Shown here one piece after another: positions 1,621 to 30,535 of a DNA stretch of 48,881 nt. The notes under the pieces were generated by a model. That model searched no databases, had not been told where the DNA came from, and worked only from the letters and a program-made list of their open reading frames with translations. The stretch's first letter is position 1; each line of letters opens with the position of its first letter. Source of the DNA: a virus; the IMG/VR virus record IMGVR_UViG_3300035698_035402, positions 1 through 48,881 of that record. One strand, given 5' to 3'. The translations under genes were made by a program, and so were the position numbers.

Positions 1621-1834
1621 TGAGAATCTTTATCAGATCACTGATAAGAACGGCAATGATTGTACGGTCAACAAGGACCAGCTTAGTGTCATGGTCCCCA
1701 CTACAACCAAAGATGGAACTTATAATATCTTCCAAAAGGGTCTAGCTAGCGAGCCTGTGAACGTGACCAAAGAGACCTATCGTGAGTTTGTTAAAGACCT
1801 ACACGACAAGGAAGACGAAAAGTTGCAGAAATGA
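1598..1834 (+). CDS. small hypothetical protein with biased base composition, 78 aa
   Basis: The gene overlaps the previous one by 23 bases and has its own AAAGGAGAG site seven bases upstream. The product is hydrophilic, rich in Lys, Asp, Thr and Asn, with a helical charged C-terminus (KDLHDKEDEKLQK). The coding sequence is clearly richer in G+C than its neighbours (25 of 60 bases at 1681-1740) and resembles the scaffold and capsid genes in that respect, which suggests selection for high expression. Function unknown; an abundant virion or early protein is possible. Confidence 0.6.
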   Translation: MANVKRISENLYQITDKNGNDCTVNKDQLSVMVPTTTKDGTYNIFQKGLASEPVNVTKETYREFVKDLHDKEDEKLQK

Positions 1835-2046
1835 CTTTTGAAGAACTAGGCATACTAGTATTAGAAGATGATAAAGCCATACCAGCCCTTGTGGTGCAGC
1901 ATGTGATCGATCATGGTGATTATGAAAAGAATTTTAAAGATATTATATGGTATAATAAATCTAAACGAACAATACAGATATTAATAAACAAAAAGATAGT
2001 TACGCTACCCCGTAACATCGTATATAATAAGTTAAAGGAAACATAA
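1831..2046 (+). CDS. small hypothetical protein, 71 aa
   Basis: Starts at an ATGA overlap with the stop of the previous gene, so translation is probably coupled. The sequence is a mix of short strands and helices (FEELGILVLEDDKAIPALVV, then basic residues with IQILINKKIVTLP). No motif is recognised. It belongs to the run of small genes between the RlpA-like lipoprotein and the ribonucleotide reductase, a typical place for phage accessory genes. Confidence 0.55.
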   Translation: MTFEELGILVLEDDKAIPALVVQHVIDHGDYEKNFKDIIWYNKSKRTIQILINKKIVTLPRNIVYNKLKET

Positions 2047-2286
2047 ATGGCAAGTATAAAACAAGAATTAATAGAAACAACTGACTGGCTTCATACAAGT
2101 GAACCTTATAATATTATGACAAATGATAATTTATATTTAGATCCATCCACTATGTCAATGAATAATGTTAAAATGGCATTAGAGTCAGCTAATATGCAGA
2201 TAACTTCATTGACACATACCGTAATACAAATGCATAGACATTTAAAGGCTTTATTAAAGATACAAGATTTAATGAACATAGATTAG
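2047..2286 (+). CDS. small hypothetical protein, 79 aa
   Basis: The ATG follows directly on the previous stop codon, with AAAGGAA about ten bases upstream. The protein is predicted to be mostly helical from about residue 35 onward (MNNVKMALESANMQITSLTH), ending in a Leu/Ile-rich stretch with coiled-coil character. No family is recognised. Confidence 0.55.
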   Translation: MASIKQELIETTDWLHTSEPYNIMTNDNLYLDPSTMSMNNVKMALESANMQITSLTHTVIQMHRHLKALLKIQDLMNID

Positions 2287-2294
2287 GAGACACT

Positions 2295-2486
2295 ATGACT
2301 AAGGTTGGATGGCAGATATATTACCAACAGAAAGTAGAACGAGAAACTGGTATTAAAATTCCAAATGAAAGTGAAATCCTAATAAAAATTGTAGAAAAAG
2401 CTTTAAATTTTTTGCGTAAAATTGAATTACCTAGAAGTCCTAATCTAGCTTCAGGTTATTGGAAATGGGAGAATCCCATTCCATAA
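2295..2486 (+). CDS. small hypothetical protein, 63 aa
   Basis: Preceded by TAGGAG seven bases before the ATG. It has a basic helical N-terminal half and a C-terminus ending SGYWKWENPIP, rich in aromatic residues and proline. No domain recognised. Short spacing (8 bases) to the previous gene supports membership in the same operon. Confidence 0.5.
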   Translation: MTKVGWQIYYQQKVERETGIKIPNESEILIKIVEKALNFLRKIELPRSPNLASGYWKWENPIP

Positions 2487-2499
2487 AAAGGTATATAAT

Positions 2500-2670
2500 A
2501 TGACTGAAGAGACGAAAAAGAGCCCCTATAAAAAAGTTAAAATTTCTAAAGAAGAACTTCTAAAAAGGATGAGAAATAGAGCTGATAATGGTCGTAAGAT
2601 TAAAATTGATGAAAATGAATATATGACGGTACCCCGTCGTTCAAGAGCGCGTCCTATCGGAAGGAAATAA
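2500..2670 (+). CDS. small basic hypothetical protein, 56 aa
   Basis: An open frame with ATG at 2500 and TAA at 2668 fills the gap between two genes exactly, ending one base before the next start. The product is strongly basic: a Lys/Glu-rich N-terminal half (KKVKISKEELLKRMRNRAD) and an Arg-rich end (VPRRSRARPIGRK). This could suit nucleic-acid or capsid binding, but that is only inferred from charge. The upstream region has only a weak AAAAGG site. Confidence 0.5.
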   Translation: MTEETKKSPYKKVKISKEELLKRMRNRADNGRKIKIDENEYMTVPRRSRARPIGRK

Positions 2671-2671
2671 T

Positions 2672-3220
2672 ATGGAGAGTCAAACATTATCATTGTTAGG
2701 AGTATTGCAACTTATACTTGGTTACGAAGGAAGAGTAGTATCACAATCTAAATCATGCGGTCCTCCAATGGCTGTATATAATTCAAATTTAGTTGTTGAA
2801 CATTTTGGTAATCCAGAACAATACTCTGTTGTTTGGTATGGTGATATTAACTTAACAAAACAAACAACAGAATTACTTACTTCTGTTGCTGATGCATTTC
2901 AATGTACTTTATATGTTTTTAGAGAGCATCCAATACGAACTTTTATTTTTAATAAAAGAGATCAAGATAAAATTTTATATCGGCAACAACGCGACATTAA
3001 AAATCGTATTGGATTAGTATGGACATCAAAAGAACCTGAAATTTTTGATAATAAATCTTATAATGAAATGTTTAAGGTCATGTCTGATGTTCGTAATACA
3101 GCAATTCGTCAAAAAATGATAACACATGAAGAGGTTACACCACGTGGTACAGAATGGACATGGTACAATGAATGGTTTTATAAAAGCATCTATAAAGCAT
3201 ACATTTTATTGCATTTATAG
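2672..3220 (+). CDS. hypothetical protein, 182 aa
   Basis: Starts one base after the preceding stop, with AAGGAA about five bases upstream. The protein looks like a soluble alpha/beta protein: YSVVWYGDINLTKQTTELL and FQCTLYVFREHPIRTFIFNK suggest alternating strands and helices. No catalytic signature was recognised. The last codons and stop lie within a 13-base perfect inverted repeat (3184-3226), so the gene's end doubles as a hairpin. Confidence 0.6.
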   Translation: MESQTLSLLGVLQLILGYEGRVVSQSKSCGPPMAVYNSNLVVEHFGNPEQYSVVWYGDINLTKQTTELLTSVADAFQCTLYVFREHPIRTFIFNKRDQDKILYRQQRDIKNRIGLVWTSKEPEIFDNKSYNEMFKVMSDVRNTAIRQKMITHEEVTPRGTEWTWYNEWFYKSIYKAYILLHL

Positions 3221-3226
3221 ATGCTT
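3184..3226 (+). terminator. large AT-rich hairpin at the end of the small-gene cluster
   Basis: AAGCATCTATAAA (3184-3196) is the perfect reverse complement of TTTATAGATGCTT (3214-3226). Three more base pairs (GCA/TGC) can form after a one-base bulge. It spans the stop codon of the 182-residue gene and is followed by AAATTTAAAATAT rather than a clean T-run. It may end or protect the upstream transcript before the ribonucleotide reductase gene; a protein-binding dyad is an alternative. Confidence 0.45.
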
Positions 3227-3292
3227 AAATTTAAAATATCTTCGTAAGACTATTACAACAATTTTATAAGTACGAAACATAAGGAGGAACAC

Positions 3293-5836: not shown

Positions 5837-6673
5837 ATGGATGATAATAATTTATGGAGTCGTTTTTCTTTTGATATTCCCATCGAATTAATCAAAGCAG
5901 AAGAAACTGACAATGGTTGGAAGATTAAAGGACTGGCATCTACTGAAGATGTTGATATGCAAGGTGAAGTTGTTAAACAGCATGGACTTGATGTTACTCC
6001 CATTAAAAAAGGTCATGGGTGGATTAATTATAATCATAGTAATGAACCCGAGGATATCATAGGTAAGCTTGATGATGCTGAAATTACTACTGATGGTTTA
6101 ATGGTTGAAGGTTATCTTTTTAAAAAGCATAATCGTGCTAAGGCTGTTTATCAAATTATGAAATCATTAGACGATAAAGATCGTCGTGCGGTGAAACTAT
6201 CCATTGAAGGTAAAATTCAAAAGCGCTCTGGTAAAGAGAGTAAAGTTATTGCTGCCGCAAAAGTTGACAAGGTAGCCATTACTTTGGATCCAATTAACGT
6301 CAACACTTACGTGGAGCTAATGAAAGCCATGACAGACAAAACTAAAGAATGGGAAATGGAAGATCTTAAATCGCCGCAGGATGATGCTTCTCCACAGAAT
6401 GACCCTGCTAATGCTACTGGAGAATCTACTGGCGTAGAAACGCGACAAGAGAATGATGGTATGAGTCCGTCAGAACCAAATCTTGAAAATTCTAAGAACA
6501 TTACACCTGATGTTCATGAATTGCTTACAGAGATTGCAGGCACCCTTAAGCAACTCGTTGATGCCTTGGTTCTTAAACCGGAAGAAGCACGTAAAGCACA
6601 AGAATTTAAGAATGATATTGCTAAAGGTTTAAGTAATATCCTTCGTAAGAAGCTTAATATTACAGAGGAGTAA
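5837..6673 (+). CDS. prohead maturation protease (HK97-type serine protease)
   Basis: Cleaves scaffold and capsid precursors inside the assembling prohead. The N-terminal about 165 residues show the expected pattern: WKIKGLASTEDVDMQGEVV, then INYNHS with the likely catalytic His67, DGLMVEGYL, and VKLSIEGKI with the likely nucleophile Ser122, ending VAITLDPINVNTYVELMKA. The C-terminal about 110 residues are low-complexity and acidic (many Pro, Asp, Asn), followed by a helical end (LLTEIAGTLKQLVDALVLK and DIAKGLSNILRKKLN); such tails often act as a scaffold or targeting region. The start follows AGAGGAG. Unusually, scaffold and capsid genes are not next door but about 18 kb downstream. Confidence 0.85.
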   Translation: MDDNNLWSRFSFDIPIELIKAEETDNGWKIKGLASTEDVDMQGEVVKQHGLDVTPIKKGHGWINYNHSNEPEDIIGKLDDAEITTDGLMVEGYLFKKHNRAKAVYQIMKSLDDKDRRAVKLSIEGKIQKRSGKESKVIAAAKVDKVAITLDPINVNTYVELMKAMTDKTKEWEMEDLKSPQDDASPQNDPANATGESTGVETRQENDGMSPSEPNLENSKNITPDVHELLTEIAGTLKQLVDALVLKPEEARKAQEFKNDIAKGLSNILRKKLNITEE

Positions 6674-6676
6674 TAC

Positions 6677-9604
6677 ATGCATTCGAATCGAACTTTATTT
6701 AATAGTCTATTCAAAAGCACTGTGGCATTTTGGCCAGAAGCTTCTATACATGATAATAGTGCGCGTCTTTTAGTTTTAGAACGTGTATTACAACGTGCGA
6801 CTGCTGATAGAAATTTAGCAAAAGCTTTAAAACTTCCTAAAATTTCAATAGAGCAAAAACAAACATCACGTGAACGTACAAAAACTTCTGGTGCAGCAAC
6901 TCCTGGTAGTGTTAAACTTCCAGATACACAAGGTCAAACGCATAATTTAAAGTACGATGTTCAACGAACTAATCCAGAAGGTGAAGAATATAGTCATCCT
7001 GCACGTATGCATTGGAAACCAGTACACGTTACAGGGCAAGGTAAAGGTCCTGCTATTCATATGGGTACCGCATCAGAACTTGACATTGAAGGGGCGTCTA
7101 AACAAAATAAAGACCGTGCTGTTGTAGCTGGACACGCTAAGAAATTAGGTATTGAAAATCCAGATCTTCCAAAATTTACACCTGAATTTAAACAAACTGG
7201 GTCAGCCGCTTTACATCATCCAAAAGCAGCCCAGCAATTATTTTCACAAAAACATAAAGAATTAACTCCTGAGCATCATATTGAGGGGGCTGATTTTCAT
7301 TATATTAGTGGATTAGAATCTTTACGCAATGAAGGTCCCAATCCAATGACTAAGAGAGAAGGCCAGCGATCTTCTGTAAAACATGAGATTCAAGCTCAAC
7401 ATAAAGATCCATCATATAAACAAAAACGTTCTGCTAGTGGTCAGCCTACTGAATCACGTACATTAGAATCTGGTCGCCCTAGTGCTCATGTACATTTACA
7501 GCATCTTGATTGGCATATTGATGAAGCTTCTAAAAAACATCGTGCAGGCCATGAAGGAGATCCAAAAAGCTATAAACCATCAGATAGTATAATCTCGGCT
7601 ATGAGAGCACGTGATGATTTGGCCCATCAAATGAAACGGCCTTCTAAATTAGAAGAAGGGCGTTTGACGAGTCAAGTTAAACAATATGGTTCTGATCTTG
7701 GATCTCCTAAAATTACTGGTAGAGGAGTTGACAATAGCTCAGAGACGGCGCTAAGGCCGTTACGTCAAGATTCTCCAACTGTAGAAAAGAAACCGGGTAC
7801 TGCGAAGCCTGGAACAGTTACGGTTCCCAAAGATAAAGTAAAAATTATTGGTACTAGAACTAAACAAGGTCATTTAGCATCAGATCCAGAAGCTTTAGAA
7901 AGTCATTTAAATGAAGCCCATGCATCTCATATGAGTGAATATGTTAAGCGCAACACTCCTGCTGGTGCAAGTAAAAGACATTCTTCACAAATTCAAGAGC
8001 AAGCTGGTAGGGCTGCTGATGAACATGTTGATCGTTTACGATCTAATCTTACTCAGCCTCGTAAAGTACAGGATATAAAAACTTCATCTAAAGATGTACA
8101 AGTTTCTGATCCTAAAGATTATCGTACTGATATGGGCCATCCGCTATCACGTAAGCGTGCGCAAGAAGGTATGGGTCCATATAAAAGCCCCGTTGAGGCA
8201 GTAGCAGAACGGATTGGTACTGGGTCTCCTCAAAGTGCTTCTGCACGTAAAGAAACGACGATTTCAGAATCTAAACATGGATATGATCCATCAAAAGCTA
8301 GTACATTTCCTAGTTATAATCCATCTGCTAAGCCAGCTGAGACTGAACGTTCTAAAAGAACTAAACAAGCTAAAGATATTAATCGTAAATTAGAATCACA
8401 GAAACTTCATTATGTTCCAGATATTGAACATTGGGAAGAAGGCGAAGCACAAAAACATTCTGAAATGGAATCTCTTAGTGATGTTGTTAGTATGAAACCA
8501 GCAAAAGAAGCTGCAGCTCAAGCAAAATATGAAAGAACTGGTAAAGTGCCGTCTTCACATAAAGATGTTGTGTCTATGTTTGAGCATGCTGATCCAGAGA
8601 TCGCGACAGAGGCCGCTCAGAGGCACATACAGAAACCAACAGACTCTACTGCTGCAATACGAGAATCTGGTGTTTTTAATGCGGATCGCGGACTTGGACA
8701 ATCCCCCTTAGATATGATGATTGCTCGAGAAGATGCTGCTGCGAAACCAAGAGCTTCCATTCCATCTCAAACTAGACAATCGATTGATCGTGAAGTGACA
8801 AAACCAAAACATGGTCGTGGACAGACAACTAAGCAAAATGAAAATGTTGAGACTCAAACTGTTGGTGGTAAACGTGGGCGTAAACGCATTATTGTTAGGC
8901 AGAATAAGAGTTTTACAGAGGCTCTGAAGAATGCATTATATGAGCAATTAAAGAAAGCTCTAACTGCTGGTACTGGATATGCTGGCGCGCCTGGTGATAT
9001 GGCTGGTGGTAGTATATTAATGACTGAAGAATTAGATAAAAAACCTAAATCTACTACTTTAGATCTTAAGCATTGTGACAAATGTAATAAAGATACTTTT
9101 CATTTTAATGATAATTGTATGGATTGTACTTTAGAAAAAGAATGGATGCCAAATGATTGGGAGAAGCTTAAAAAAGAGTCCTCAAAAGTCGCTCTTAAAT
9201 CATTTATGAAGCGAAGCCTAAAAAGAGGCTATACTGGACAAGGTGATTATCTTCTTGACATCTTTAAAGAGAAGATCCTTCCGCATATTAGGAAGGCTGC
9301 ACCCGATGCTCCAATTCATGTTTATAATGTTGGTGGAGATGATGTTAAAGTTTATGTATCTAAGAATAAGGATCGCGCTAATAGTTTTACTGCTTATCAT
9401 AAAGCTTTTTCAGAAGAACAACATCTTGAGGCTGGCGCGTATCATGTACACAAAGCTGCTGAATACAATGCATCGGAAACACTCGGATTACGTGACACGC
9501 ATGTTATGCATGCCTTAGAGCATTTATCAAGGGCTTCCGAGGCTGCGAATGACAGTGAAATTGGTGAATTGCTTATTGATAATCTTGGAGACTGGTACGT
9601 ATGA
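6677..9604 (+). CDS. large disordered basic protein with a capsid-like segment and zinc-ribbon motif, 975 aa
   Basis: Residues about 50-740 are low-complexity, rich in Lys, Arg, His, Ser, Gln and Pro, with no predicted globular fold. Residues 756-787 align without gaps to residues 22-53 of the major capsid protein: 23 of 32 are identical, sharing EQL.KAL.AG.GYAGAPG and GGS.LM.E.L. A CxxC-X10-CxxC motif (Cys800, 803, 814, 817) follows, then a globular-looking end with PIHVYNVGGDDVKVYVSK and a His-rich helix. It sits directly after the protease, 3 bases away, with AGAGGAG before its ATG. An internal head or assembly protein that binds DNA or capsid is plausible; no function is recognised. Confidence 0.6.
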   Translation: MHSNRTLFNSLFKSTVAFWPEASIHDNSARLLVLERVLQRATADRNLAKALKLPKISIEQKQTSRERTKTSGAATPGSVKLPDTQGQTHNLKYDVQRTNPEGEEYSHPARMHWKPVHVTGQGKGPAIHMGTASELDIEGASKQNKDRAVVAGHAKKLGIENPDLPKFTPEFKQTGSAALHHPKAAQQLFSQKHKELTPEHHIEGADFHYISGLESLRNEGPNPMTKREGQRSSVKHEIQAQHKDPSYKQKRSASGQPTESRTLESGRPSAHVHLQHLDWHIDEASKKHRAGHEGDPKSYKPSDSIISAMRARDDLAHQMKRPSKLEEGRLTSQVKQYGSDLGSPKITGRGVDNSSETALRPLRQDSPTVEKKPGTAKPGTVTVPKDKVKIIGTRTKQGHLASDPEALESHLNEAHASHMSEYVKRNTPAGASKRHSSQIQEQAGRAADEHVDRLRSNLTQPRKVQDIKTSSKDVQVSDPKDYRTDMGHPLSRKRAQEGMGPYKSPVEAVAERIGTGSPQSASARKETTISESKHGYDPSKASTFPSYNPSAKPAETERSKRTKQAKDINRKLESQKLHYVPDIEHWEEGEAQKHSEMESLSDVVSMKPAKEAAAQAKYERTGKVPSSHKDVVSMFEHADPEIATEAAQRHIQKPTDSTAAIRESGVFNADRGLGQSPLDMMIAREDAAAKPRASIPSQTRQSIDREVTKPKHGRGQTTKQNENVETQTVGGKRGRKRIIVRQNKSFTEALKNALYEQLKKALTAGTGYAGAPGDMAGGSILMTEELDKKPKSTTLDLKHCDKCNKDTFHFNDNCMDCTLEKEWMPNDWEKLKKESSKVALKSFMKRSLKRGYTGQGDYLLDIFKEKILPHIRKAAPDAPIHVYNVGGDDVKVYVSKNKDRANSFTAYHKAFSEEQHLEAGAYHVHKAAEYNASETLGLRDTHVMHALEHLSRASEAANDSEIGELLIDNLGDWYV
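8942..9037 (+). repeat. segment homologous to the major capsid protein N-terminus (copy A)
   Basis: Encodes residues 756-787 of the 975-residue protein. It matches capsid protein residues 22-53 (25635-25730) at 23 of 32 positions with no gap. Codon choices differ throughout, so the likeness is at protein level and not a recent DNA duplication. Confidence 0.8.
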
Positions 9605-19655: not shown

Positions 19656-20876
19656 ATGACAACAAAGAAAACTAAAAAAATACCAAGAAATCATTGGAGT
19701 AAAATTTTAGAAAGAGAACGTAAAGCAAGAGAAAATAAAGTTAGAATAGTTTCTCGTGGTTTATTATTTATTCAATCTGGCTTCGGAGAAGCCTTAAGAA
19801 ACATTATATTGGGGTTGGATTCGCACGGTTGCCTTATTAAAGCTGTTTCTGCGGCACCTTGGGACGTTGACAATGTAGGAGTCAATGCCGATGATAAAAT
19901 TAATAGAGTTTTAGAATTACAAAACTCAAATATACCACAATCAGATTGTCCAATCCACCTTACAATGCTTGACCCTCCTGGAATTCGAGACCACCCTGGT
20001 CATTATAATATTGCATATATTATGTTTGAGACAGAAAAATTTCCTAAAGATTTTGTACATCATTTACGAAACCAAGACGAAATTTGGACTCCATCTAAAT
20101 TTTGTAAAAAAACAATGATTAAAGCTGGACTTAAAAATGTTCATATTATGCCTCTTGGTGTTGACATTGAAAGATTTAATCCAGATATAGTTACTCCAAT
20201 GGAACGTCCTGATGATCTTAAAGACAAATTCATGTTTTTAATTGTATGTGGCTGGAGCGAGCGAAAAGGCATTGACGTATTAATGCGTGCTTTCGCTGAA
20301 GAGTTTGATAAAGATGAAGATGTGTGCTTATATATGAAAGGCGGCTGGTACGATAAAAAGAAAGCAGAGGCTAGCGTTCAAAAATATATCGGTGATATTA
20401 TCCATACAGCCCCCCCAATTAAATTAGATTTTAAAATTTATTCTTGTCAAGATCTTCCTCGCATTTATAAAATGGCTGATTGTTATACAATGCCAACACG
20501 AGGAGAAGGTTGGGGATTAGAATTTAGTGAAGCTATGGCGATGGAAATGCCAATTATCGGTACTAATTGGAGTGGTAATACAGAATTTATGAATGAAGAT
20601 AATAGTTATCTTCTAGATTATGATGGTTTAAAAACTTGTCCAGAGATTGATTGGATTATTCCGCATTATATAGATGCAAAATTTGCAAACCCTGATAAAG
20701 AGCATCTTAAAAAATTGATGAGACATGTATTTGAAAATCAAAAAGAAGCAAAGGCTAAGGGTGAATATGCTCGTAAATTTATTAGTGAGAAATATACATG
20801 GAAAAAGTCTACTAAGAAAGCATTTAATAGATTGAAAAAAATTCATAAAATGTTAAAAGAGAAGGGGTCAAAATGA
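19656..20876 (+). CDS. GT4-like glycosyltransferase, 406 aa
   Basis: A retaining GT-B fold transferase moving a sugar from a nucleotide-sugar donor. The donor-binding C-terminal half shows GWSERKGIDVL (199-209) and the EX7E motif E284-GWGLEFS-E292, followed by AMAMEMPIIGTNWSGNTEFM. The N-terminal half contains IMPLGVDIERFNP before the linker. A basic N-terminus of about 30 residues precedes the fold. No ribosome binding site is visible before the ATG. It opens a six-gene cassette and overlaps the next gene as ATGA. The acceptor is unknown: virion protein or host surface glycan. Confidence 0.85.
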   Translation: MTTKKTKKIPRNHWSKILERERKARENKVRIVSRGLLFIQSGFGEALRNIILGLDSHGCLIKAVSAAPWDVDNVGVNADDKINRVLELQNSNIPQSDCPIHLTMLDPPGIRDHPGHYNIAYIMFETEKFPKDFVHHLRNQDEIWTPSKFCKKTMIKAGLKNVHIMPLGVDIERFNPDIVTPMERPDDLKDKFMFLIVCGWSERKGIDVLMRAFAEEFDKDEDVCLYMKGGWYDKKKAEASVQKYIGDIIHTAPPIKLDFKIYSCQDLPRIYKMADCYTMPTRGEGWGLEFSEAMAMEMPIIGTNWSGNTEFMNEDNSYLLDYDGLKTCPEIDWIIPHYIDAKFANPDKEHLKKLMRHVFENQKEAKAKGEYARKFISEKYTWKKSTKKAFNRLKKIHKMLKEKGSK

Positions 20877-21850
20877 AGAAAAAAGCATTTATTACAGGTA
20901 TTACTGGCCAAGATGGAGCCTACCTTGCAAAATTTCTTCTAGACAAAGATTATGAAGTTTATGGACTTATACGTCGTATTGTTAATCGTAGTATGAGTAA
21001 TTTAGATTATCTTGGTATTACAAAAAGAATACATTTTATTGATGGTGATATGACTGATGAATGCTCTCTTTTAAATGCCATTAAAACAATTCAACCAGAT
21101 GAAGTTTATAATCTTGCTGCTCAATCATTTGTAAAAACTTCTTGGGACTGCCCAGTATCTACTACAGATATTAATGCTAATGGCCCTCTCCGTTTATTAA
21201 ATGCCATTAAATTGTGGCATCCAGAAGCAAAATTTTATCAAGCATCTACTAGTGAAATGTTTGGTAATAATAGTGATAATGGAGTACAGACCGAAGAGAC
21301 TGCTTTTAAACCATGTAGTCCTTATGCTATCGCTAAGTTATTTGCACATTGGATGACGATTAATTTTAAAGAGAGTTATGGTATATTTGCATGCTGTGGT
21401 ATTTTATTTAATCATGAATCTCCTCTTAGAGGATTAGAATTTGTTACTCGTAAAATTACAGATGGTGTAGCTCAAATTAAGATGGGATTGGCAGATTCAA
21501 TTTCTTTGGGTAATTTAGATTCTACACGTGATTGGGGATTCGCTGGTGATTATGTTAAAGCCATGTGGATGATGTTACAACATGACGACCCTGATACATT
21601 TATTATTTCTACTAATGAAAGTCATAGTATTAGAGATTTATTAACAATAGCATTTGATCATGTAGGCATAAAAGATTGGCAAAAATATGTTAAAGTTGAT
21701 CCTAGATTTATGAGACCAAAAGATTTGATTGATTTACATGGTCGTAATTGTAAGGCCAAGAATATTCTTGGTTGGGAACCTGATTGTAACTTTGAAAAAT
21801 TAGTACAGATTATGATGGATGCAGATTTAAAAAGATATGAAAGGAGATAG
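20873..21850 (+). CDS. gmd: GDP-mannose 4,6-dehydratase-like sugar-nucleotide enzyme
   Basis: Would convert GDP-mannose to GDP-4-keto-6-deoxymannose, the first step to GDP-fucose or GDP-rhamnose. Visible: NAD(P)-binding GITGQDG (9-15), NLAAQSFVKTSW, ASTSEMFG (124-131, supplying the catalytic Thr and Glu), and Tyr151/Lys155 in SPYAIAKL. NHESPLRG and TRKITDGVAQIKMG also match this enzyme family. No reductase or epimerase completing a 6-deoxysugar is in the window, so the host may supply it. Overlaps both neighbours' boundaries closely, so co-translated with the glycosyltransferase. Other short-chain sugar dehydratases are a less likely identity. Confidence 0.87.
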   Translation: MKKKAFITGITGQDGAYLAKFLLDKDYEVYGLIRRIVNRSMSNLDYLGITKRIHFIDGDMTDECSLLNAIKTIQPDEVYNLAAQSFVKTSWDCPVSTTDINANGPLRLLNAIKLWHPEAKFYQASTSEMFGNNSDNGVQTEETAFKPCSPYAIAKLFAHWMTINFKESYGIFACCGILFNHESPLRGLEFVTRKITDGVAQIKMGLADSISLGNLDSTRDWGFAGDYVKAMWMMLQHDDPDTFIISTNESHSIRDLLTIAFDHVGIKDWQKYVKVDPRFMRPKDLIDLHGRNCKAKNILGWEPDCNFEKLVQIMMDADLKRYERR

Positions 21851-21852
21851 GT

Positions 21853-22509
21853 ATGAAAGTAGATCCTAAAATTATTGCTAAGCTATTAAAAGGATGGGAA
21901 TGGAGTGAGCGTACTCATGAAATACCATTTTTTTTTGAACATTTACCAGAGCCACCTATTAAAATTCTTGATGTGGGATGTTGTGATAGTCAAGTAATAA
22001 CTGAGTTAGATAAATTAGGTTATGATGCTTGGGGCATTGATATGCATCAATATAATTGGCCATATCATAAATTTATGATAGCTGATGGTCGTAATATGCC
22101 ATTTGAAGACAATAGTTTTGATATGGTATACTCTATTAGTGTTATTGAACATGCTGGATTAGTAAGAACTCCATATGATACTGATACAAAACTTGACGTT
22201 CTTGCTGACGTAAAAATTTTTAATGAAATGTTAAGAGTTGTAAAGCCAGATGGAAAGATTGTTATTACATTGCCCTATGGTTTTGGCCATCCTAATTTAG
22301 ATTTTTGGATAAAATTTTTCAATCAAGAAAGACTAGAACATTTAATAGATAATGATTTATTTGTAATGGATAAAATTGAATATACCTATTGTATTGATAG
22401 AGTTAATTTTAAATGGGCCCCATGTGATGAATATACTGCCCGCATGCAAGTATCAATGAAAGATAAAGTTATGGCAAATATGTGTTTTGTAGGACATAAA
22501 AAAATATGA
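21853..22509 (+). CDS. class I SAM-dependent methyltransferase, 218 aa
   Basis: Binds S-adenosylmethionine: motif I ILDVGCCDS (38-46), post-I acidic GID (61-63), an ADGRNMPFED segment, and FDMVYSISVIEH (89-100), typical of the UbiE/COQ5-like Methyltransf_11 group. The SAM-binding loop is 'DVGCCDS' and lacks the usual second glycine. It sits between a sugar dehydratase and two sulfotransferase-like genes, so a sugar or glycan is a likely methyl acceptor (inference). AAGGAGAT precedes the ATG. Confidence 0.82.
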   Translation: MKVDPKIIAKLLKGWEWSERTHEIPFFFEHLPEPPIKILDVGCCDSQVITELDKLGYDAWGIDMHQYNWPYHKFMIADGRNMPFEDNSFDMVYSISVIEHAGLVRTPYDTDTKLDVLADVKIFNEMLRVVKPDGKIVITLPYGFGHPNLDFWIKFFNQERLEHLIDNDLFVMDKIEYTYCIDRVNFKWAPCDEYTARMQVSMKDKVMANMCFVGHKKI

Positions 22510-23186
22510 TGAATTTAGAAGATTATAAATTAACTCAAGTTAATTTTACTTATAATTATTATTTTCCAAAATTAAAAGTAATTTTTTGTCATATGCCTGG
22601 GTCTGGTGGCTCATTTATATCTAGATTTTTATATATGAGAGAACATAATCTTTCTGAGAATGAAACTTCTAGAGATTATAAAATTTGTAATCGTCTAACT
22701 AGATTTATTAAAATTCGTGTAACTGATCTTCATATATATAAAGATCAAGGTATATATATATTTAGTTTAGTAAGAGATCCAATATCTAGAATGTTATCAT
22801 TATATAAACGATTTAGATTACAATTACCATTAGAAGAAAAAAATTGGCGATTAGCCATTCCAGATGAAGGACCAGAAACTTTTAAACGATTTGTTGATTG
22901 TTTAATTAAACAAACTGATAATAATAATGATGTACATTGGGTATCACAACACGATTTATTATCTCATAATGGTAAATTACAACAAGATCATATCGGTAGA
23001 TTTGAACATTTTCAACATGAAATATTAAATATATGTAATGTTTTAAAAGTTAAAGTACCTTCATTTCAAAAAGTTAATTATTCTAAAGATATTGACATTG
23101 AAATACTACCAGAATCAATAGAAAAAATACGATGTCGATATTATAAAGATTATGAATTATTAAAATTTTTAGAGGATAAATGCTAG
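22506..23186 (+). CDS. sulfotransferase-like protein A, 226 aa
   Basis: Sulfotransferases move sulfate from PAPS to sugars or other acceptors. The first PAPS-binding loop is visible as CHMPGSGGSFISRFL (28-42) and the second as YIFSLVRDPISRMLSLYKRF (84-103), giving Arg90 and Ser94 for the 3'-phosphate. The usual Lys in the first loop is missing (PGSGG where many members have K.gGT/S), which questions activity. The gene overlaps its neighbours as ATGA at the start and by seven bases at the end. Base composition is extremely AT-rich (12 of 60 G+C at 23041-23100). Confidence 0.72.
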   Translation: MMNLEDYKLTQVNFTYNYYFPKLKVIFCHMPGSGGSFISRFLYMREHNLSENETSRDYKICNRLTRFIKIRVTDLHIYKDQGIYIFSLVRDPISRMLSLYKRFRLQLPLEEKNWRLAIPDEGPETFKRFVDCLIKQTDNNNDVHWVSQHDLLSHNGKLQQDHIGRFEHFQHEILNICNVLKVKVPSFQKVNYSKDIDIEILPESIEKIRCRYYKDYELLKFLEDKC

Positions 23187-23854
23187 TATCTCATCAGTAT
23201 AAATTTATTTTTCTTAAGACTATGAAAGTGGCTGGAACATCTGTAGAAGCAGTAATGGACAAATATTGCTTACCACCTAATAAAGATTGGAAAATTCAAC
23301 TTAGTCGTAAAGAGTCAATAACTAAATATGGTATTAGTACAGTACGGGGATTGCCGCATGGTGCTGACGTTAAATGGCAAGATCATTTAGGAGCCTTTCG
23401 TACTAAACAATATGTAAATGAAATAGATCCTAAAATTTTTGAAACATATATAAAATTTTCTATAATTAGAAATCCATGGGACAAAGTAGTATCATGGTAT
23501 CATTGGAATCATCCTAGTCTTAAAATACCATTTGATAAATTTGTATTAGAAACAGTAAATGATCCATTAGATCGACATGTTTATTGTATTAACAATAGAT
23601 CCATCTGTGATTTTCATATTAAATATGAAAACTTACTTGGTGATATGAAAGAATTATATAATAAATTAAATATTTCAGGCGCTGACCAATTAGAGTTTCT
23701 TATGCCAAATTATTTAAATCATGTACGTACTTTATATGGAAAAAATTTAAAAAAACATTATTCTACTTATTATACAAATCAAGCGACAATAGATAAAGTA
23801 GCTAAAGTTTATGACAAAGAAATAGAATGGTTTAATTATAAATTTAAAAACTAG
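23180..23854 (+). CDS. sulfotransferase-like protein B, 224 aa
   Basis: The first PAPS loop reads FLKTMKVAGTSVEAVM (11-26), with the classic 'K...AGTS' pattern. The second reads FSIIRNPWDKVVSWY (93-107), with Arg97 and Ser105 for the 3'-phosphate. This matches the family of carbohydrate-type sulfotransferases found in bacteria and some phages. Its two loops are more canonical than those of the preceding paralogue, so it is the better candidate for an active enzyme. It overlaps that gene by seven bases. Confidence 0.78.
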   Translation: MLVSHQYKFIFLKTMKVAGTSVEAVMDKYCLPPNKDWKIQLSRKESITKYGISTVRGLPHGADVKWQDHLGAFRTKQYVNEIDPKIFETYIKFSIIRNPWDKVVSWYHWNHPSLKIPFDKFVLETVNDPLDRHVYCINNRSICDFHIKYENLLGDMKELYNKLNISGADQLEFLMPNYLNHVRTLYGKNLKKHYSTYYTNQATIDKVAKVYDKEIEWFNYKFKN

Positions 23855-23868
23855 AAGGAGTAACTAAC

Positions 23869-24798
23869 ATGGAAATTCAATTTTTTAAAAGAGAAGATGG
23901 GTCGTCTTTAAATATAGTAGGTGATGCTCTTATAAAACTCTTAAAACGCGGCAATAAATTTCAAGTAAATGTAAAGAGTGTTAATAAATATGTATCTGGA
24001 CAAACCATTGAGATTGCTGATGTAGGCATAGCATGCGGTCTCATTACAGATTTATATTTATTACAGCACTATTCGCGTCGTATTGCTAGTCTTGTATGTG
24101 AGAAACCATTAACTTTAAAAGAAATAGAATTACTTCAAGAAGCTAAACTTGACAATATTTGGGTACCATCACAGTATGTTAAACAACAGTTTCAAAATGC
24201 AGGATTTAAAAAATTATCTTATATACCTTATGGTATTGATCGTCTATTACCTTCTCCAATTAATCCTGGTAAGCGATTGAGAGTGGGTATGGTTTTTACA
24301 TCACATCAGCACGCAAATTTTCATGTTGTTAGAAAAGGTATTTTTGAGACGTTACAAGCCATTGGTAGTATGGAAAATAATGTAACATTAGTATTACGTA
24401 CTGATAATAAATCATATTATAGTAAGTATATAAAAGATCTTAAAAATGTTGAGTTTGTATCTTATGTAAGAAATATGAAAGATTTTTATGATGATGTAGA
24501 TATAATATTAACACCTTCTAAAAGTGAAGGATTTGGATTAATAGGTATGGAAGCATTGGCGTACGGTATACCTTTAATATCTACTAAAACTGGTAATGAT
24601 TATCTTGATGAAGATACATCTTATTATCATTTAGACAAAGTTACAGCAGACAATATACATGATGCTATCTTAAATGTAATAAATCATTATCCTTCCTATG
24701 CACATAAAGCTACCAATCAAAGAGAATGTTTTATAGAAAAAAACGCATGGGAATTTAAATATCAACAATTAGATAGATCTATTCGTAGTATTTTTTAG
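23869..24798 (+). CDS. GT4-like glycosyltransferase, 309 aa
   Basis: The C-terminal half carries the EX7E motif: E220-GFGLIGM-E228, followed by ALAYGIPLISTKTGNDYL. The linker region shows YIPYGIDRLLPSP. At 309 residues it is short for the family, with a reduced N-terminal acceptor domain. AGAAGGAG precedes the start. It closes the glycan cassette; downstream is a 109-base gap and then the head genes. Acceptor and donor cannot be told from sequence. Confidence 0.82.
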   Translation: MEIQFFKREDGSSLNIVGDALIKLLKRGNKFQVNVKSVNKYVSGQTIEIADVGIACGLITDLYLLQHYSRRIASLVCEKPLTLKEIELLQEAKLDNIWVPSQYVKQQFQNAGFKKLSYIPYGIDRLLPSPINPGKRLRVGMVFTSHQHANFHVVRKGIFETLQAIGSMENNVTLVLRTDNKSYYSKYIKDLKNVEFVSYVRNMKDFYDDVDIILTPSKSEGFGLIGMEALAYGIPLISTKTGNDYLDEDTSYYHLDKVTADNIHDAILNVINHYPSYAHKATNQRECFIEKNAWEFKYQQLDRSIRSIF

Positions 24799-24907: not shown

Positions 24908-25531
24908 ATGGAGATGAATTTAGACAAAGCCTCCCTCGACGAAATTTTAGAGGATGCTGTGGAGAAGGCGATTGGTTCCCTTGCTAAAGGTGATCCAGAT
25001 CACGACGCCCCTGGTCTTAATGATGACTTTGCTGAATCTGATGCAGTCGCAGCTAGCGAAGGCGCAGCAGTAAAGGCAGAAGAGGACGACGACGACGAGG
25101 ATGAGGATAAGGATAAGAAGCCAGCATTTTTAGATAAGAAAGCAGATACGGAGAAAGCAGACACTGAAAAGTCGAATGCAGTTTCACCGACTCTGGTTAA
25201 ATCAATGGCTAAAGGTATCATAGGTATGACAGAAGCAATTAGTACTCTTACTGAGAAGGTTAACACCATCTCTAAGGGTCGTGCTCGTGGTATTAAATCA
25301 GCCACCAAGGAGGAAAACGTGGAGTATATTGAGAAGGGTGGGGCTGGTGATACTGCTGCAGACGACATTATAAAAGCAAATTCTCATCGGGTCGGCCAAT
25401 CGTTGTTAAAGATGCATACTGAAGGTAAGATTCCTGGTCGTACGCTTACAGAATTCGAGCTTTTTGGCGTCGAAAAATTGTCTGATGGTCTCAAAAAGGC
25501 TGTTATGACAGAGTGCGATTTAGTGAAATAA
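24908..25531 (+). CDS. capsid scaffold-like protein, 207 aa
   Basis: Directly upstream of the major capsid gene. It has the character of a scaffold: a helical acidic start, a long acidic low-complexity region (an EEDDDDEDEDKDKK tract near residue 60), then a helical coiled-coil-like middle (SMAKGIIGMTEAISTLTEKV) and a conserved-looking end. It would guide capsid shell assembly and be removed by the protease. Base composition is richer in G+C than its surroundings, as for the capsid gene. AAAGGAG sets the start. Scaffold identity rests on position and composition, not on recognised homology. Confidence 0.6.
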   Translation: MEMNLDKASLDEILEDAVEKAIGSLAKGDPDHDAPGLNDDFAESDAVAASEGAAVKAEEDDDDEDEDKDKKPAFLDKKADTEKADTEKSNAVSPTLVKSMAKGIIGMTEAISTLTEKVNTISKGRARGIKSATKEENVEYIEKGGAGDTAADDIIKANSHRVGQSLLKMHTEGKIPGRTLTEFELFGVEKLSDGLKKAVMTECDLVK

Positions 25532-25571: not shown

Positions 25572-27065
25572 ATGTTTGATCAAATTCAAAATGGCTTCGG
25601 AGCACAGGGGCTTTCCCTTGATGGTCGTGAAGTTGAGCAGTTAGCTAAGGCACTCCAGGCTGGTTATGGATATGCTGGTGCTCCCGGCTCTATGTCAGGC
25701 GGTAGTGTCCTGATGGTTGAGTCGCTAGAATATACGTTGCATTCAGTTACGTGGGATGAGAAACATCTCCGCATCTGGCCGTTAATTCCTAAAATGGAAG
25801 TTTGGAATACCGTCCATGAATTCAACCGTTATACTGGCCATGGTGAGCAGTACGAATCGGGTGGTTTCTTTGATGCGGATGCGCAGGTTCTTCCAATTGA
25901 AACGAATGCCCAGTTTAATCGCCAGATTTCAAGGGTTCGTTACATTGGTTGTACGAAGGTTGTAACTCATCCGATGACGTTGGTTCGTACGTCAGTTGAA
26001 TCGGCAGTAGCCGTTGAATCCCGTGCAGGAACGAAGTGGATTCTCGAGCAGCAGGAACGCCAGTTATTTATGGCGAATGACGACTTTTTAAATTCTGCTG
26101 ATGGTACCTTTACTGGTGCAGTGGCAGCAATTCCTACTAATGTTTTAAAATACCATGGTGTCTCCCAGCAGATTCTTTCTGGTAACTCAGACTCTAGTGC
26201 GCAGTACCTAGGTTTTGATGGTTACGGCGGAAATCTTACGTCGGTTTATAATCTTCAAGGAGCAATCCCTGATGAGGAAGACATGGAAGCAGCGCCACGT
26301 GTACAGGCTGAAAATTTTGGTATGCCAACACATTTCTTCTGTGATTTTAAAACGCATTCCGATATTAACCGTCAGTTTCAACCCAAGGAACGTATTACTC
26401 CTATGGGCGTTGTAAATGGTCAGGCTGGATTCGTCCTTACAGATTTCTTCAGTGCTGCGGGCCCATTTAAAATGGTTCCGTCACGTTTCTTAAGTCCTAA
26501 ACAGGGTTTCTTAACCATTGCTCAGGGTATTGCAGGTAGTGGAAATGTTGCTCCAGCCACTCCAACTGTTACTAGTATCGCTGCCGCAGCCAATGTAAAT
26601 TCTGTTCTTACCGCTGGTGATTACAGTTATCGCGTTTCAGCATTAAATAACGTTGGTGAGTCAGTTCCTGCAGTACAGCAGGTAGTCACCCTCGCTGGCA
26701 GTGAAGATGCTGCTATTACAATCGCTGCAGGTACAGCTGGCGCGCTTTATTACGCCATCTATCGTGCTCCGGTTGATACGACCGTTAGTCATTTGTTCGT
26801 CGGTTTTGTTACCGATAGTTTGGCTGCTGGTGGTGGTGGAGTAGTTGCCCACGAAGCAGGGGGAAAATACCCTGGCCTCGCGAAGGCTTTCTTTCTCCAG
26901 TTAGACCCCTCTGAAATTCAGTGGGCGCAGTTAGCACCGCTCATGAAGATGAACCTTGCAGTCTTAAGCCCGGCGATCCGTTTTATGGTCTTATTATACG
27001 GTATGGTTCTCGTCTATGCTCCAAAGCATCACGTTTTAATGACGAATATTGGCCGTATGGGTTAA
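25572..27065 (+). CDS. major capsid protein (HK97 fold), 497 aa
   Basis: Residues 22-53 form an N-terminal arm (EQLAKALQAGYGYAGAPG then GGSVLMVESLE), followed by HLRIWPLIPKMEVWNTVHEF and a long Asn/Gln-rich core. This pattern of 'AL.AGYG...GG..L..ESLE' followed by a W/K-rich strand is that of large-phage HK97-type capsid proteins. Residues about 325-430 form an inserted Ig/fibronectin-like domain (TAGDYSYRVSALNNVGESVP, ALYYAIYRAPVDTT) that probably projects from the capsomer. The C-terminus (AVLSPAIRFMVLLYGMVLVY) completes the shell domain. Strong AAAGGAG; composition is 27 of 60 G+C at 25861-25920, far above neighbouring genes. Followed by a strong terminator. Confidence 0.88.
   Translation: MFDQIQNGFGAQGLSLDGREVEQLAKALQAGYGYAGAPGSMSGGSVLMVESLEYTLHSVTWDEKHLRIWPLIPKMEVWNTVHEFNRYTGHGEQYESGGFFDADAQVLPIETNAQFNRQISRVRYIGCTKVVTHPMTLVRTSVESAVAVESRAGTKWILEQQERQLFMANDDFLNSADGTFTGAVAAIPTNVLKYHGVSQQILSGNSDSSAQYLGFDGYGGNLTSVYNLQGAIPDEEDMEAAPRVQAENFGMPTHFFCDFKTHSDINRQFQPKERITPMGVVNGQAGFVLTDFFSAAGPFKMVPSRFLSPKQGFLTIAQGIAGSGNVAPATPTVTSIAAAANVNSVLTAGDYSYRVSALNNVGESVPAVQQVVTLAGSEDAAITIAAGTAGALYYAIYRAPVDTTVSHLFVGFVTDSLAAGGGGVVAHEAGGKYPGLAKAFFLQLDPSEIQWAQLAPLMKMNLAVLSPAIRFMVLLYGMVLVYAPKHHVLMTNIGRMG
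25635..25730 (+). repeat. capsid N-terminal segment shared with the 975-aa protein (copy B)
   Basis: Encodes capsid residues 22-53, matching residues 756-787 of the protein at 6677-9604 at 23 of 32 positions. See copy A at 8942-9037. Confidence 0.8.
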
Positions 27066-29344: not shown

Positions 29345-30535
29345 ATGAATTTAAAAAACAAAACACCAACATTTACAGGGTATAAACTCGACAAACAATA
29401 TTCTTTTCAAGGCTTACAGCTTTCAATTGAAAATAAAAAGGGCACTACTAGGGAATGGAAGAATAGAAATGGCAAAACTGGTAAGACCAAAATGCAATAT
29501 GACTATGGATATATACGACGCACTCTTGGAAATGACAAAGATCATATAGATTGTTATGTTGGTCCAAATAAAGAAGCCAAACAAGTTTATGTTATCCATC
29601 AGAATGTTAATGGTAAATTTGATGAAGACAAAGTAATGTTAGGATTTAATTCAACCAAAGAGGCAAAAGTCGCTTATTTAAAACACTATGACGACCCAAG
29701 TTTTTTTGGCAGTATGGATACAATACCAATGGATAAATTTAAAGACAAAGTTATTGGAAAGCGAGTTAATAGAATTAAGAAAGCTACTGGATCAAAAGTA
29801 CATACTTTTACTATTGAAGATGCAAAAGATCTTGGTATGAAGATTGGGATTAATTGGGAGCATGTTCATTTTGGTGCTGATGATTTTTTAAGAGGCATAG
29901 ATGTAGAGACAGAACATGAGGGAGATCCACAAACAGATGTAATATCTTCCACTTCTGATCTTGGTAAAATTGCTTTGGCTCATTTAAAAGAAGATCCTAA
30001 ATATTATACCAAGTTAGCTGTTATGGAAAGTAAAAAATCAATGATAAGTATGTTATTTCAGTATCTTATTAAAGCTAGAATCCTTGAAGAGAAGCAGAAA
30101 ACAGGCGTACAAAAACGACACAAAACTGCAGTAGAACAAGAAAGTACAGAAGCCAAAGGGAAGCCACAAGCCAAAGGCCATGTAAGTTCAGCAACACCAG
30201 CAACAATGCGGCCATCTAGTATAGGACGTACTATTCCGTGGCGTCCCGAAACTCGATTTGTTGAACATCCTGAGCGCAGACGCCCTCCGTCAGTAACGCC
30301 ACGACGCGGTTCTAAAAAATATTCTGCTGTACAAGACAGTCGAGCCACTAGGACTGATAAACAATATACAATTGCACAAAGTCATTCAATTTATTCTGGC
30401 AAACGTTCTAGTCTTGGTAAAGATGCAGTGGCTATGCATATTAGAGGTGTTAAAAAATATCGTAAATCAGAATTAAAAGAAAGTTTAATTAATATATTAA
30501 AAAAAGCTTTTGAAGGAAACAATGGCACAAAATAA
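29345..30535 (+). CDS. InPase-like plus DUF5661-like fusion with basic disordered tail, 396 aa
   Basis: Three parts. Residues about 10-145 match the phage inorganic-pyrophosphatase-like (InPase) domain: QYDYGYIRRTLGNDKDHIDC, YVGP, then GKFDEDKVMLGF, with candidate metal-binding Asp64, Asp66 and Asp69. Residues about 155-230 match DUF5661: AKDLGMKIGINWEHVHFGAD, a V-E-TEHEGD stretch, KIALAHLKEDPKYYTKL. Residues about 235-370 are basic and disordered, ending in an amphipathic helix (KSELKESLINILKKAFEG). Activity is not demonstrated; pyrophosphate or nucleotide chemistry is inferred. Lies in the head block with a poor ribosome site (AGAGAA). Confidence 0.65.
   Translation: MNLKNKTPTFTGYKLDKQYSFQGLQLSIENKKGTTREWKNRNGKTGKTKMQYDYGYIRRTLGNDKDHIDCYVGPNKEAKQVYVIHQNVNGKFDEDKVMLGFNSTKEAKVAYLKHYDDPSFFGSMDTIPMDKFKDKVIGKRVNRIKKATGSKVHTFTIEDAKDLGMKIGINWEHVHFGADDFLRGIDVETEHEGDPQTDVISSTSDLGKIALAHLKEDPKYYTKLAVMESKKSMISMLFQYLIKARILEEKQKTGVQKRHKTAVEQESTEAKGKPQAKGHVSSATPATMRPSSIGRTIPWRPETRFVEHPERRRPPSVTPRRGSKKYSAVQDSRATRTDKQYTIAQSHSIYSGKRSSLGKDAVAMHIRGVKKYRKSELKESLINILKKAFEGNNGTK

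Follow-up and report, generated by a model that had tools for sequence, protein, structure and literature searches.

A capsid-arm segment that recurs in the maturation protease or its neighbour points to probable cutting, and possible docking, of head proteins in SPO1/A511-type phages by means of a borrowed piece of coat

Why does a phage encode a piece of its coat protein a second time, inside a large protein of another gene? This question is raised by the IMG/VR virus record IMGVR_UViG_3300035698_035402, of which positions 1 to 48,881 (48,881 nucleotides, here called the window) were analysed. In the window, a protein of 975 amino acids (aa) carries a segment that resembles the N-terminal arm of the major capsid protein. 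This shared segment is referred to as the module. The pieces concerned are the following.

6677–9604, plus strand: 975-aa protein carrying the module; its ATG lies 3 nucleotides behind the protease stop codon
8942–9037, plus strand: copy of the capsid N-terminal arm module, residues 756–787 of the 975-aa protein; 23/32 identity, score above shuffles
25572–27065, plus strand: major capsid protein of the SPO1/A511 type, 497 aa; phrog_752, E=1e-61
25635–25730, plus strand: capsid arm, residues 22–53, with the cut site between K26 and A27; from alignment with the A511, SPO1 and Staphylococcus phage capsids

When residues 756–787 of the 975-aa protein are aligned with capsid residues 22–53, 23 of the 32 positions are identical and no gap is needed. 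This match was reported in an original prediction made from the letters of the window, together with the observation that the codons differ, and both are borne out on recomputation. The best local alignment covers 44 columns (residues 756–799 of the 975-aa protein and 22–65 of the capsid protein) with a BLOSUM62 score of 134, whereas shuffled versions of the 975-aa protein (n=2000) have a mean score of 38.6, a standard deviation of 4.8 and a maximum of 69. In a six-frame scan of the window there is a single such match, with a score of 104, and the next best scores 34. Among the 26 identical residues that remain when Met and Trp are left out, 11 share a codon, and codon usage predicts 10.0. The prediction thus stands against shuffled sequence, and both known homologues of the 975-aa protein retain the segment.

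The position of the module in the capsid protein is informative. The window capsid matches phrog_752, which is annotated as 'major head protein', and a tblastn search with it returns 207 phage records, mostly from the Herelleviridae. Its AlphaFold model aligns with the SPO1 capsid 9vel at Z 32.5 and 3.4 Å over 390 residues (VIA-align). The A511 record annotates the mature capsid peptide from Ser24, i.e. after a cut between K23 and S24, and the chain in PDB 9row (a Staphylococcus phage capsid) starts at the equivalent Ser (SFQTGYGITPD...). K26 and A27 of the window capsid align with A511 K23 and S24 and with the 9row chain start, and an N-terminal cut after Lys26 is predicted by this alignment. 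Because the shared segment begins at the capsid maturation cut, it corresponds to the cut site (Lys followed by Ser or Ala) plus the mature N-terminal arm. The arm is modelled with low confidence in the capsid protein (residues 22–47 are under pLDDT 50), and the segment is of low confidence in both AlphaFold models, as is expected of a segment that becomes ordered only on a partner. Elsewhere in the capsid protein, an insertion at window positions 26556–26819 (residues 329–416) also matches phrog_19622 'esterase/lipase' (E=5.5e-9) and is probably a shared surface domain.

Most sampled phages of the SPO1/A511-type capsid clade carry the module twice, once in the capsid protein and once in a C-terminal extension of the maturation protease. 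The sample consists of 97 loci with a capsid of this type from IMG/VR and GenBank, of which 63 are non-redundant; many of the contigs are fragmentary. An initial query with the segment gave weak matches to the maturation protease gene of SPO1L4 and to the Touem01 capsid. In SPO1 gp3.2, A511 gp84 and the Touem01 protease, the catalytic domain is followed by a segment that copies the capsid arm of the same phage; the A511 capsid, for example, reads KSFTTGYGITPDTQTDAGALRRE and the A511 protease KSWTTGHGTTPDTQVNAGALRRE. The proteases of Dolphis, a Thermus phage and many IMG/VR phages likewise carry the module. By profile, it is present in 38 of the 63 non-redundant proteases. In whole-protein comparison, 41 of 63 score above 200 shuffles, one of them spuriously: the match in DAC19 (L010) falls inside the catalytic domain. 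The Lys before the cut and an Ala, Ser or Thr after it are kept in nearly all copies. The PHROG 'major head protein' profile matches A511 gp84 at residues 156–204 (E=1.2e-7) and SPO1 gp3.2 (E=4.4e-5), and the sole PDB match of a profile of protease sequences is the SPO1 capsid, residues 15–66 (E=4.9e-5). The idea that one internal protein copies the coat's arm is therefore right as to the copy but too narrow, because the module is widespread in maturation proteases.

Each copy resembles the arm of its own phage beyond chance pairing or shared ancestry. When proteases are paired with their own capsid arms the mean score is 74.0, compared with 46.3 for permuted pairs (the maximum of 10,000 is 53.7). 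In a control with capsid residues 101–180 there is no such effect (own pairing 29.1, permuted 28.3). Arm and copy distances are correlated after capsid-core and protease-core distances are removed (partial r 0.28, p=0.0006), and in 98% of comparisons between distant phages the copy is nearer to the arm of its own capsid than to its orthologue. Pooled over identical residues, 345 of 846 codons are the same, and 335.0 are expected from codon usage. Since codon identity is at expectation, the likeness is maintained by selection at the protein level and not by recent copying, and recent gene conversion between capsid and copy is ruled out.

In the window lineage, the second copy appears to have moved from the protease to the product of the neighbouring gene. 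The features of this region are given below.

5837–6673, plus strand: head maturation protease without the module; phrog_1028, E=7.6e-28
6677–8941, plus strand: N-terminal region of the 975-aa protein, basic and poorly conserved; pI 9.7, net charge +28, few conserved columns
8954–8959, plus strand: predicted cut between K760 and A761 of the 975-aa protein, equivalent to capsid K26 and A27, where the copy would be cleaved
9074–9127, plus strand: putative zinc ribbon (CxxC...CxxC) directly behind the module; C800, C803, C814 and C817 are invariant in three homologues

The window protease is 57% identical to that of a related phage, G002, over residues 3–265. In these two phages and a further relative, G001, the arm match of the protease is no better than that of shuffles, and the module sits in the product of the next gene, a homologue of 951 aa in G001 and 918 aa in G002. 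A fourth, more distant phage (G006) also has a protease without the module. It encodes a separate 264-aa protein that starts with the module (MEKALTVGH...) and continues with a helical tail resembling the protease tail (E about 1e-5). The simplest history would be that the module and C-terminal tail of the protease became a separate, enlarged protein. In the C-terminus of the window protease (6200–6673), the stretch NDGMSPSEPNLENSKNIT aligns with the protease-copy region and faintly resembles the module; it is possibly a relic left after relocation.

The gene for the 975-aa protein has a ribosome-binding site (GAGGAG) at 6665–6670. Residues 1–755 of its product are rich in S, K, A, E, R, P, T and G, and the first 740 or so are barely alignable across the three carriers. 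The module is the longest invariant stretch and the best-conserved part of these three homologues. The copy scores about equally with the 'protease-copy' and 'capsid-arm' subtype profiles (30.6 and 28.0 bits). Searches of Pfam and PHROG found zero domains in the 975-aa protein, and its C-terminus has no homologues beyond G001 and G002 among GenBank phages, bacterial and archaeal genomes and a single-sequence search of viral contigs. Multiple scaffold-like cutting of this protein was considered and rejected, as sites of K followed by A, S or T are not enriched (15, with 23.0 expected).

The shared segment points to a borrowed piece of coat as the means by which head proteins would be cut and perhaps also docked. 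In the favoured explanation, the module is the cut site plus the mature arm; the copies are cut, and the downstream arm docks on the shell. The chances that this is correct are judged to be about even. The 975-aa protein would enter the prohead, and the protease would cut it between K760 and A761 as it does the capsid protein between K26 and A27. This cut would free the long basic N-terminal part (760 residues). The C-terminal 215 residues, with a new capsid-like arm at their N-terminus, would then dock on the inner shell at the position of a capsid arm. Proteases of other phages would cut themselves at their own module and release their C-terminal tail. Among the functions that had been offered for the segment from the letters alone, a shared protease-processing region and a shell-docking tag both survive, as the segment starts at the capsid cut; a decoy for capsid subunits is disfavoured, and nothing indicates assembly inhibition. 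The natural relocation of the module in the window suggests that it can work apart from the protease. More tentatively, and with some doubt, arm mimicry could be a principle that holds generally for head assembly in phages of the SPO1/A511 type. A copy of the capsid's maturation arm would be present in ancillary proteins, namely the protease or, where its tail has been taken over, a large internal protein. These proteins would be cut at the same bond as the capsid and attached to the shell in the manner of capsid arms.

Several points weigh against cutting followed by docking. We infer the cutting of the copies, the location in the head and the docking from comparison, and the computations here fit shell docking and protease recognition alike. 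There is no second copy in about a third of the sampled phages, among them Bacteroides phage DAC19, whose record is complete; some lineages can thus do without the module. The G001 copy matches the window capsid better than the G001 capsid, and short-range tracking is thus imperfect. Outside the module, homology between the C-terminus of the 975-aa protein and the protease tail is non-significant (E about 0.1), so an origin of the carrier from a protease tail is likewise deduced.

In the alternative that survives best, the module serves as an extended recognition element: the protease would bind about 30 residues past the cut, and all proteins cut there would need the same sequence. This is possible, although on the whole it is not the expected outcome. 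It covers the protease's own C-terminal propeptide, and the protease copy may be a built-in pseudosubstrate; copies would stay similar to the capsid because each co-evolves with the same groove of the protease. In keeping with recognition, the module has the cut at its start and in most proteases follows closely on the catalytic domain, and T4 gp21 and SPN3US gp245 autocleave a C-terminal propeptide. However, related proteases need very short motifs (LXE in T4, AXE in SPN3US), relocated modules would act without being in cis, and the AlphaFold model puts the module outside the active site, at low confidence. The putative scaffold proteins, which are probably also substrates, are without the module. 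In the window, this protein lies as follows, and the six-frame scan finds the module absent from it.

24908–25531, plus strand: acidic putative scaffold protein without the module; pI 4.6, gene immediately upstream of that for the capsid, an order shared with SPO1/A511

A signal for import into the prohead is improbable. The uncut helix and arm would co-assemble with capsid arms or scaffold, and cutting would release the protein later. In favour of it, the carriers of the module are the protease and a large hydrophilic protein adjoining it, T4 and P1 have capsid targeting sequences, and in both AlphaFold models a helix is predicted across the cut. Known targeting sequences are upstream of the cut and are removed, whereas the conserved part of the module is downstream, and the G006 module begins its protein with almost nothing upstream.

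It is very improbable that the module is a relic, left by an old domain duplication and now functionless, or that it is a decoy capturing capsid subunits. The absence of the module in some lineages would agree with a relic. Against this, the module is conserved above the rest of the 975-aa protein, its lineage matching exceeds that from phylogeny, and the codons hold no nucleotide memory; together these three observations require selection. As for a decoy, there is no sign that assembly is inhibited. Chance or low-complexity similarity, for which the Gly/Ala-rich composition of the segment might speak, is refuted by a score of 134 against a shuffle maximum of 69 and by recurrence across dozens of phages, and its likelihood is negligible.

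Some of the sampled proteases have additional parts. Those of L017 (505 aa) and L063 (748 aa) have long insertions between the catalytic domain and the module. In L017 (open reading frame (ORF) 1771–3285), an inorganic-pyrophosphatase-like region is seen there by eye. In L063 (3831–6074), a cysteine-rich CxxC-type stretch at residues about 610–645 directly precedes the module, whereas the CxxC...CxxC ribbon of the 975-aa protein succeeds it. In the window, a 396-aa protein (29345–30535) combines an inorganic-pyrophosphatase-like domain with DUF5661, and DUF5661 also occurs at the end of the G006 module protein (L149, 1967–2761). These pyrophosphatase-like and DUF5661 domains seem to be shuffled among head-associated proteins. 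Five proteases of about 500–530 aa (L137, L138, L139, L072 and L079) are fused to a long acidic scaffold-like C-terminal half. These fusions adjoin the capsid gene upstream, retain at most the second half of the module and recall the protease-scaffold fusions of herpesviruses.

Among the other features of the window, a block at 19656–24798 holds glycosyltransferase-, sugar-nucleotide dehydratase-, methyltransferase- and sulfotransferase-like genes (by eye). It lies between tail-fibre-like genes and the scaffold and capsid genes, and the distance between capsid and protease is 19 kb. About 1 kb at 1621–2671 is without an ORF of at least 80 aa and without a tRNA.

A published description of a module shared by capsid and protease was not found in the open-access literature (subscription papers are outside this scope), which is no proof of novelty. 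A review of T4 lists how prohead proteases reach the head, and why gp21 autocleaves, as one of the major gaps, and states that gp21 propeptides may target the protease to the prohead (PMC9026906). The protease is detected by virion proteomics in the Herelleviridae phages Bc431v3 (PMC3601020) and CKA15 (PMC12282133); for CKA15, a Listeria phage, it is represented by 4 peptides with 29.5% coverage. A lineage-matched capsid-arm tail on the protease would be a direct answer to the question of protease targeting and self-cutting in SPO1, A511 and phage K. If the module docks, it would also be a ready-made tag for loading proteins into SPO1/A511-type capsids.

In the Herelleviridae proteases (SPO1 gp3.2, A511 gp84; PHROG 1028), the module is located in the protease's own C-terminal part. 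The window differs from SPO1 and A511 in that the catalytic protein is without the module and the adjoining 975-aa protein has it. In T4 gp21 and SPN3US gp245, a C-terminal propeptide is self-removed during head maturation, which is similar to the autocleavage proposed here for the protease. The substrates of these enzymes share only a 3-residue cut motif, and a copy of the capsid arm is undescribed in the papers covered. The Foldseek best matches of the protease fold are herpes proteases. The UL26-type proteins of herpesviruses combine the protease with a removable tail that binds the capsid protein, but this tail is not known to be a copy of the capsid N-terminal arm. The capsid targeting sequence of T4 internal proteins and the targeting of P1 DarB are also comparable, as a short sequence is thought to bring a protein into the head. 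The T4 sequence is linked to protease cutting, is N-terminal and is lost on cutting. In contrast, the copy in the 975-aa protein is at residue 756 with its conserved part downstream of the predicted cut; this part would stay on the C-terminal product, and it copies the capsid protein.
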